A DNA stretch of 64,000 nt from Eublepharis macularius (taxonomy: Eukaryota; Chordata; Lepidosauria; Squamata; Eublepharidae), in assembly GCF_028583425.1 (NCBI RefSeq), contig NC_072800.1, positions 93,837,001-93,901,000 on the forward strand, written 5' to 3'. Position numbers and translations under genes: made by a program. Under the pieces are notes generated by a model, which saw only the letters and a program-made list of their open reading frames with translations, had not been told where the DNA came from and did no database searches. Position 1 is the stretch's first letter. Each line of letters opens with the position of its first letter. Below are positions 25,801 through 28,800 of this stretch, piece after piece.

Positions 25801-28800
25801 ACTATCACCTGGTAAATATAGTCTTAAGGCTGTATTAAAGGGACAGAGTCATTTTTTGTCCAGGCTGTTGGCAACCATTTCTCCCAGGCTTTCTTAAATT
25901 CCATTCTTTCAATTCCAATCTTCGTTTCTGGTTGTGTGCATGAATGTGGAGGGGGGGGGGAATATGGGGAGAGGGGAGCGCTCCGTGACATCATTTCTCC
26001 TTCCCAGGATGCAATGCGAAAGCCAACACTCTCACAGTGCACAACACCCAGTGCCTTGTCAGTCTATAGCAGCAAAGTACAAGAAAATTCCTGGGACTTC
26101 TTGAAGACTAACATATTTATTAGCTTTTAAATTGCCCCATGATTTTACTTTTGCTCTCAAAGCAAAGCAATATCCCAATATTTCTAACTAAATCAGGTCC
26201 AGACGGGCCGCTTAGGGACTGTTGCCTGACCTTTTTAGTGGTGCAGAGTGCCGTCAAGTCATAGCTGACTTATGGCGACCCCTGCTGAGGTTTTCATAGC
26301 AAGAGACTAACAGAGGTGGTTTGCCATGGCGTGCCTCTGTCCACAACTGTGGTCTTTGTTGGAGGTCTCCCATCCACTTACTAACCAAGGCCAACCCTGC
26401 TTAGCTTCTGAGATCGGATGAGATCAGGCTCACCCAGGGTTGCCAGCCTCCAGGTAGTGGCTGGAGATCTCCCGGAATTACAACTGGTCTCCAGGCCTCA
26501 GAGATCAGTTCACCTGGAGAAAATGGCTACTTTGGGGGGTGGACTCTATGGAATTATGCCATGCCAAGGTCCTTTCCCTCCCCAGGATTCTCCACCATGA
26601 GTACTTGATGCTTCCAGTTCTTCAATTGCATTATTAATTCTAGAGCTGCTGTTTGACTTTTTAATGGAAGCTGGGACTTTATTTATTTATAAGCCAAGCA
26701 ATGCAGTGTCTGGAAGCGAAGGATGCTTTATGTGAAGGGCAGTGGCCATTAATGGAGAAGGGACTGGAAGCTGCTTAAGAAGGGCTGCTAACTGGGCGGG
26801 TTGTTTTTCCACCTAGCAGGGTTCCAGTGCCTTTGACAGAAGCACGACAGGCAGAAATTCAACAGGTGATGCTTTGGGCAGCTTGCAGACAAAGTAGTAA
26901 GGAAAACTTCATCTGCTGGATTCCTGCCTGTTACGCCTATGTTAAAAGCACAGGAGTGCTGGGAGAAAATTTAGCCAGCAAGGAATTTGTTGGTAAGTCT
27001 GTTGGACAGTAGATAGGATGCCTCTGCCTGTCCCCACCTCTCCTGCCAGAGCTCACAAGTTGACTGTTCTGGGACAGTAATAAGAGGGTGGGAGAGCAGT
27101 GTGTGTGTGTGGGGAGAGCTTGAAGCCCCTTCCCACAATCCAGCAATTAACTAGCCTCTGTCTTCCAACCCCATGAAGATGCCATCATTCAAAGGAAAGG
27201 CAGCAGAAAGAGATTGGTAACCCTGGGCATGTCTACCTGCGAGTAAGCCCCATGGAGTGCATTGGGACTTACTTTTGAGTAGACAGGCATATGCTCAGCC
27301 TGCCTGGGGTAGGCATCTGCGGAAAGCGCTTAAAAGCCAAGCAGCCTCTTCCCCTGCCCCCGTCTTTCTCTTTAACGCTACAAGGCGACCCCCTCCTTTC
27401 GCCTGAAGGATCCGAGCCTCCTCCCCTCCCAAGAACCATTGCAGCTTCCAAGGTCCAGCCCTTTCTCACAACTGATAAAAGCTGAAATCCTGCAGAGGTG
27501 CCTTTTCAGCATTCTGTCCGGGGTGTGTGTGTGTGCGGGGCAGGCGGGCTCTTGTTGGGAGCTGCTCCCAAGGAACGGGAAGCGGAGAGATGGATTCTTT
27601 GATGGCTCGGCGGCATCCCCCCCACCTGCTCCCGATGGGAGGTAACTCAGAGCTCTTTGCTTGGGCTTCTCGGGAGGGGGTGGGGTGGGGGGTGGGGGAG
27701 GGCTTGAATGGTAAGCGAGGGATGTAGCCCTTTTTTGTCATACGTTGAGAGCACTTTGGACCCGTTTGGCCCTGCTCTTGCTGTGAAGCTGTCCCTGGGT
27801 CTGCGGGAGCTTGATTTTGAAATGCTTTTTTGAAACTGTTGGGTTGCTATTCCAGAAAGAGGGAAGGAATGATTTCAAAAAATTAATAAAATAATAAAAT
27901 GAAACTCTGTGTAGGGAGTTGAACTCAAATCCCTCAGATTCTTGTCTGACCTAACAGTTAACCAGGTTTAACTGGTGGCGCTTCATAATCCCAAAGGGAA
28001 GCCCTGTGTGTGTGGGAAAGCTCTGGGCTGGAAATCCCCGGTGGGGGCAGAGGCTGTTATCACTGGAATAGCGTGCTGCTGCCACCCAAATGCTATACCG
28101 TTCTTATTTCATTTCTCTTGTAGTAGTTTTTCTCTTAAATGCATCCCTTCCTTATCCAGAGGAGTGAGCCGTGTTAGTCTGCAGTTGCAAAATAGTAAAG
28201 AGTCCAGTAGCACCTTTAAGACTAACCAACTTTATTGTAAGCTTTCAAGAACCACAGCTCTTTTCATCAGATGCACCATGGTTCATGAAAGCTTATGTTA
28301 CAATAAAGCTGTGGTCCTCAAAAGCTTATGCTACAATAAAGTTGCATCTGACAAAGAGAGCTGTGGTTCTCGAAAGCTTATGCTGCAATACAATTGCATC
28401 TGATGAAGAGAGCTGTGGTTCTCGAAAGCTTATGCTGCAATAAAATTGCATCTGATGAAGAGAGCTGTGGTTCTTGAAAGCTTATGCTGCCATAAAGTTG
28501 GTTAGTCTTAAAGGTGCTACCGGACTCTTTACTATTTTCCCTCCCCTATGATTCCCAAGCATGCTAGTTGGAAGCCCTTTGGGCCTTGCTTCTGTGTAAA
28601 CATGCTTAGGCTTGCTTTGGATCTCCATAAACCAGCGCTGGGTTTGGATGGGGATCCTGGTCTTTGACTCCTTTCCGCTCTGAGGGTGCAGGCAGGCAGG
28701 ACAAGCAGGGGTCTGGGATGGGTCCCATTCTAAAGAGGCTTGGGCTGGATACTGCCTCCCTCCCCGCCCCACTCACACACACAAGAAAATCCTCAGGCTT

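Follow-up and report, generated by a model that had tools for sequence, protein, structure and literature searches.

Minimal hammerhead-like units in a 52-bp tandem array of the gecko Eublepharis macularius, probably derived from a Penelope-like element

A short tandem array whose units resemble hammerhead ribozymes lies in a 64,000-nucleotide stretch of the Eublepharis macularius genome (assembly GCF_028583425.1, contig NC_072800.1, positions 93,837,001 to 93,901,000 of the forward strand; hereafter the window, in whose coordinates positions are given), and it raises the question of whether these units belong to a known class of ribozyme and where they come from. At a probability of about 0.85, we take the array to belong to an old insertion, non-autonomous and derived from a Penelope-like element (PLE) pseudo-LTR, with a minimal type I hammerhead in each 52-bp unit.

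Tandem Repeats Finder places the array at 28307-28500, with a period of exactly 52, 3.7 copies and 92% matches, and the three full units, which begin at 28344, 28396 and 28448 with the exact 52-bp spacing proposed in a first-pass annotation, differ from one another at 3, 3 and 6 of 52 positions. That annotation had the array begin at 28292, where we find no full unit: the stretch 28292-28343 differs at 16-17 of 52 positions, and decayed partial copies on the plus strand (28279-28343) give profile matches at 28279-28307 (14.8 bits) and 28307-28344 (25.3 bits) instead. All three plus-strand units do have GCAT 5' of the core and GAA-AGCT-T-ATGC 3' of stem II, as had been described, and the corresponding RNA would consist of a stem I (GCAU/AUGC), the core CUGANGA followed by an added A, then stem II and GAA, with a palindromic AGCU at the position of stem III. 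The core CTGAYGA had been ascribed to every unit; it stands in unit 2 (28396-28447, predicted cleavage after 28431) and unit 3 (28448-28499), both with CTGATGA and hence the core order CUGANGA ... GAA, and is lost in unit 1 (28344-28395), where CTGACAA lacks the catalytic G8. A GAGA/TCTC stem-loop is likewise not common to all units, because unit 3 has TCTT and its last stem II pair is thus G.U; stem II is best taken as 6 bp (GAGAGC/GUUCUC) with a UGUG loop, preceded by one extra A. The strict hammerhead consensus has no extra base between the core and stem II, and this A, which the first reading had rightly pointed out, violates it in all 25 units of the window. An additional nucleotide in the core has reportedly been described for a viroid hammerhead.

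A strict minimal-hammerhead descriptor, composed post hoc with the units already known, matched four places in the window, units 2 and 3 among them, and matched none in 100 dinucleotide shuffles. This speaks against the chief alternative, which we regard as improbable, that the array is plain inverted-repeat or minisatellite DNA with an accidental likeness to hammerheads and an RNA without any role. The Rfam search favours that alternative: the first-pass annotation had named a failure of hammerhead models to score as evidence against the motif, and we obtained no Rfam hammerhead match at the gathering threshold in the window, at E ≤ 10 in three stretches or at E ≤ 1 in eight loci. Rfam hammerhead models expect a stem III, which the minimal variant is without. 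The 14 Rfam matches that were obtained at 28140-28560 (E ≤ 10) belonged to miRNA, snoRNA and scaRNA models, all far below threshold and mostly caused by the inverted repeat that includes the array, and were set aside. Competing folds are the more stable ones, which counts against activity: for a tandem pair of units, the hammerhead formed as a dimer was calculated at -18.2 or -15.7 kcal/mol versus -30.8 and -27.3 kcal/mol for the best fold, with an energy model that is blind to the core's own contacts.

The array units have many relatives. A profile search of the window, with a threshold of 28 bits, recovered 25 units, which occur on both strands, align without gaps and have the same core order and spacing. 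Eighteen of these form subfamily A, with a CTGAYGA-like core and, in all but one of the 18, U as the base that precedes the cut; six form subfamily B, with the core CTGAAGA, a GUGAGC/GCUCAC-like stem and C before the cut; and one, at 56149, is intermediate between the two. Only 13 of the 25 units in the window retain an intact core, which weighs against activity, as do 52 of the 125 units from nine fetched array loci. With a profile of the window units, 200 kb sampled at regular places on contigs C1-C3 yielded 8 units above 25 bits, and the reversed-sequence control over all loci fetched at that stage reached at most 5.9 bits; the window thus looks richer in units than the sample, with profiles and thresholds that differ between the two. 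Across the 2.24-Gb, 72-contig assembly, a 19-bp piece of the unit occurs with up to two mismatches at 67,843 places (34,272 + 33,571; control 1 + 0), and the U-A form of one stem II pair at 1,127 + 1,198 places. A further variant with a loop one base shorter was seen at five fetched loci (L001, L002, L005, L006 and L008). Exact unit patterns gave no places in the viral-contig and genome-contig collections.

Covariation of the stems across many copies, another test named at the outset, was borne out, with limits. Across the 25 units of the window, 78.9% of cells are paired at the 11 proposed positions, as against 34-48% when the partner is slid by 1-3 columns, and the number of cells paired, the number of cells with two-sided changes and the covariation score each lie above all 500 shuffles. 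The other two of the five shuffle measures, the number of pairs with two-sided changes (33/500) and the number of pair types (132/500), show no excess in the same units; two of six slid versions likewise give five pairs with a two-sided change; and stem I is the weaker stem, paired in 64.8% of cells. When the window units were combined with genomic ones to give 40 distinct units (25 and 16, with one duplicate; six of the 22 genomic units, five of them with the loop one base shorter, were left out as shifted), the stem II pair 18-31 was A-U in 25 and U-A in 7, and never A.A or U.U, and the stem I pair 6-43 was C-G in 21 and U-A in 6. These counts support the view that stems I and II have been kept by matched two-sided changes between the two subfamilies. 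The changes mostly separate subfamily A from subfamily B and so represent few events, though matched ones, and they tell against an accidental likeness. So does the distribution of differences along the window units, in which core sites outside CpG differ in 1.7% of cells versus 18.5% elsewhere, with a profile that was itself seeded on the core. At the nine array loci, where 119 of 125 units entered the comparison, differences amount to 18-40% at the four CpG positions, 2.8% at the remaining core sites and 5.7% at other sites.

The origin of the unit is indicated by its neighbours. On the minus strand of the window, an ORF at 21157-22113 encodes a PLE remnant with a GIY-YIG endonuclease (PF01541, 23.4 bits against a cut-off of 22.6), which shows the GIY-YIG part only; no reverse transcriptase (RT) was recognised in it. 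About 110 bp past its stop, on the same strand, lies a single pseudo-LTR unit of subfamily A comprising hammerhead and tail (20919-21042). The same arrangement recurs at locus L006, where the end of the endonuclease is 74.5% identical to the window copy and the unit follows about 310 bp past the stop. The sequence directly before the unit is common to the window copy and locus L021 and similar by eye at L003, L006 and L008; L001 and L002, which are near-identical to one another, have only a short piece of it in common. This comparison took in only units with certain upstream endings and therefore provides no tally. Since the unit stands 3' of the endonuclease in the window copy and L006, and the sequence before it recurs, we take it to belong to the PLE 3' region, as its 3' repeat. 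A second PLE remnant on the minus strand (5333-7566) gives RT and GIY-YIG matches that both fall just under their cut-offs (27.1 bits against 29.6 and 22.5 against 22.6), and its RT piece gave no matches in the PDB. We considered whether 7934-8128 is the 5' repeat of this element; against this, a different hammerhead-like motif, GTGAGGAAGCGGTTCTCGTGAAAC, lies 3' of its ORF, at 5052 on the minus strand. With the core order and the matched stem changes, the position of the endonuclease 5' of the unit supports the reading first proposed, of a tandem type I hammerhead with a tiny stem III as in PLEs, and we regard the unit as a probable minimal, stem-III-less type I hammerhead of PLE origin. Its place in a PLE, a class for which such motifs are reported (PMC7761336, in excerpt), also weighs against a chance resemblance.

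The array itself forms an arm of an inverted repeat, the putative pseudo-LTR insertion at 28156-28538, whose longer arm runs on the minus strand and ends at the low coordinate, near 28156, an end placed by eye. The arms match at 28189-28235/28492-28538 (98% complementary) and 28238-28275/28447-28484 (97%). The longer arm carries an inverted hammerhead unit (28238-28275, minus strand, core C at 28270; GCTTACAATAA) in which the bases past the predicted cleavage point are partly missing, and the shorter arm ends in a plus-strand tail at 28500-28538 that begins GGTTAGTCTTAAAGGTGC. A candidate 11-bp target-site duplication, found by eye, flanks the insertion (CCCTTCCTTAT at 28145-28155 and CCCTCCCCTAT at 28539-28549), with 9 of 11 positions matching between the copies. 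Related copies are present elsewhere in the window, and a scripted search for target-site duplications in 13 related regions gave three clear cases (15 bp exact, 12 bp exact and 13 bp with one mismatch), three weak ones and seven with none listed, the 28156-28538 insertion among these seven. A tRNA-Ser (GGA) at 16421-16492 on the minus strand is flanked by two of the inverted-repeat insertions. As RNA, the insertion is predicted to fold into a long hairpin of -185.7 kcal/mol (z -17.1, an energy that none of 100 shuffles reached), with unit 3 in duplex with the inverted unit and unit 1 paired with unit 2. That this hairpin is the best fold is a point in favour of plain inverted-repeat DNA.

Cervera and de la Pena (2014) and Lunse et al. 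(2017) are said to bear on the minimal type I hammerheads of PLEs. According to the excerpted text of a review (PMC7761336), such hammerheads map to PLE pseudo-LTRs, occur in tandem and possibly cut as dimers. The gecko unit resembles these in its type I order, its pseudo-LTR site, its tandem occurrence and possible dimers, and in a stem III that is no more than a tiny palindrome; it differs in occurring also in long 52-bp arrays. The extra A described above may be a further difference. If the PLE reading is right, RNA of the source element would cut between GCUU and AUGC and thus process the PLE transcript, probably only as a dimer, through AGCU-AGCU pairing between units, or with the help of the PLE protein. 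The latter has a reported precedent in Anolis carolinensis, in whose Poseidon-type PLE, PAc, the hammerhead did not cut unless PLE protein was supplied; the same work gives no reads beginning or ending at the cleavage site (PMC11167929). Like the gecko element, PAc is a reptile PLE that encodes a GIY-YIG endonuclease and has its hammerhead in the pseudo-LTR. The PAc ORF starts at stem II and the protein is needed to cut, whereas the gecko material consists of decayed copies studied as sequence. The array units at 28344-28499 would be relics of such an element, two of three keeping the core and one of these two being predicted in duplex with the inverted unit.

How the units multiplied was approached through their joins. 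The tandem junction, with up to three mismatches, occurs at 2,570 + 1,559 places genome-wide (control 0), and the survey for other 52-bp arrays that had been suggested at the outset did find them, with up to 28 tandem copies: at locus L044, 28 units run at 52 bp. At other fetched loci the 52-bp period is mixed with 47 (L042) or 38 (L036), and at L046 units alternate with a 104-bp period; core-dead units have been multiplied too, as plain minisatellite DNA would allow. Among the matches listed for contigs C1-C3, exact junctions lie no farther than 20 Mb from a contig end at 35 of 42 loci (17.6% expected; 81 of 100 listed places used), and among those listed for C1, the general unit does so at 23 of 82 loci (15.7% expected; 90 of 100 listed places used). 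Being restricted to places among the matches listed, this apparent concentration near contig ends is only a lead. Taken together, the mixed periods, the 104-bp alternation, the multiplied dead units and the contig-end concentration suggest that the arrays grow as DNA.

The same observations bear on a rival account of the small arrays that we consider very improbable, in which transcripts of the 52-bp arrays would cut themselves, as dimers in cis, into RNAs of 52 nt, and these RNAs would then be circularised and reverse-transcribed by a rolling-circle mechanism. Most array steps are indeed exactly 52 bp, and a two-unit array lies within an insertion (16692-16977) with an exact 15-bp target-site duplication. 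Animal retrozymes, as excerpts of PMC7229834 describe them, offer a partial parallel: they too are tandem type I hammerhead repeats, the amphibian ones more active as dimers, but they have monomers and circular RNAs of 170-400 nt and canonical hammerheads, whereas here there is a 52-bp period, outside that size range, read from DNA. Were it true, the units would form the smallest retrozyme-like replicon, and the exactness of the period would be accounted for. The 38- and 47-bp periods, the alternation, the dead units and the contig-end concentration suit growth as DNA instead, and both tandem and inverted joins start about 36 bases 5' of the predicted cleavage point, which makes hammerhead cutting an unlikely source of the join ends. 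The palindromic junction TCTCTTCGTCAGATGCATCTGACGAAGAGA, with up to three mismatches, is found at 6,411 places genome-wide (control 0), and in two window copies the inverted arms abut without a spacer. Head-to-head palindromic junctions (for example 50864-50971 in the window) have the same axis in stem I. One conceivable route is annealing of two cDNA ends by way of the stem I palindrome ATGCAT.

The surroundings offer one further explanation. The NACA gene (36271-50663, plus strand) was recognised by Pfam NAC and UBA and includes a stop-free ORF of 1953 aa (36271-42132), which we take to be the giant muscle exon of NACA; exon matches are strong at 46887, 48653, 49686 and 50538 and weak at 45454. 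A 5S rRNA match (26346-26442, minus strand, 49.9 bits) and short GC-rich tandem repeats at 12856-13196, in a stretch of 71% GC, also lie in the window. That the array is an active intronic ribozyme serving NACA, like the conserved human intronic hammerheads, is hardly credible: it does lie upstream of the NACA coding exons and the giant ORF on the same strand, with the core retained in units 2 and 3, but the unit occurs all over the genome, unit 1 is core-dead, the other two are predicted to be held in pairing with the inverted unit or with unit 1, and its intron position is only putative, since the exon matches to NACA did not include the first exon. The possible location in an intron is what it has in common with the human motifs, which according to PMC3088659 are conserved between species and owe their stability to a pseudoknot or contacts; the gecko unit is a decayed dispersed repeat.

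Our literature search, which had thin coverage of subscription journals, found nothing on these particular arrays; unit strings looked for in full text led only to papers whose titles point to unrelated topics. The array is a fresh example, in an old and partly decayed copy, of a hammerhead type already described in PLEs, and it leaves the understanding of hammerheads and of PLEs unchanged. It documents a family of minimal-hammerhead units, linked to a PLE and very abundant in this 2.24-Gb genome, and points to a ribozyme-bearing unit that seeds minisatellite-like arrays. With two subfamilies, single units, tandem pairs and long arrays, this family offers natural material for testing whether minimal hammerheads act as dimers.
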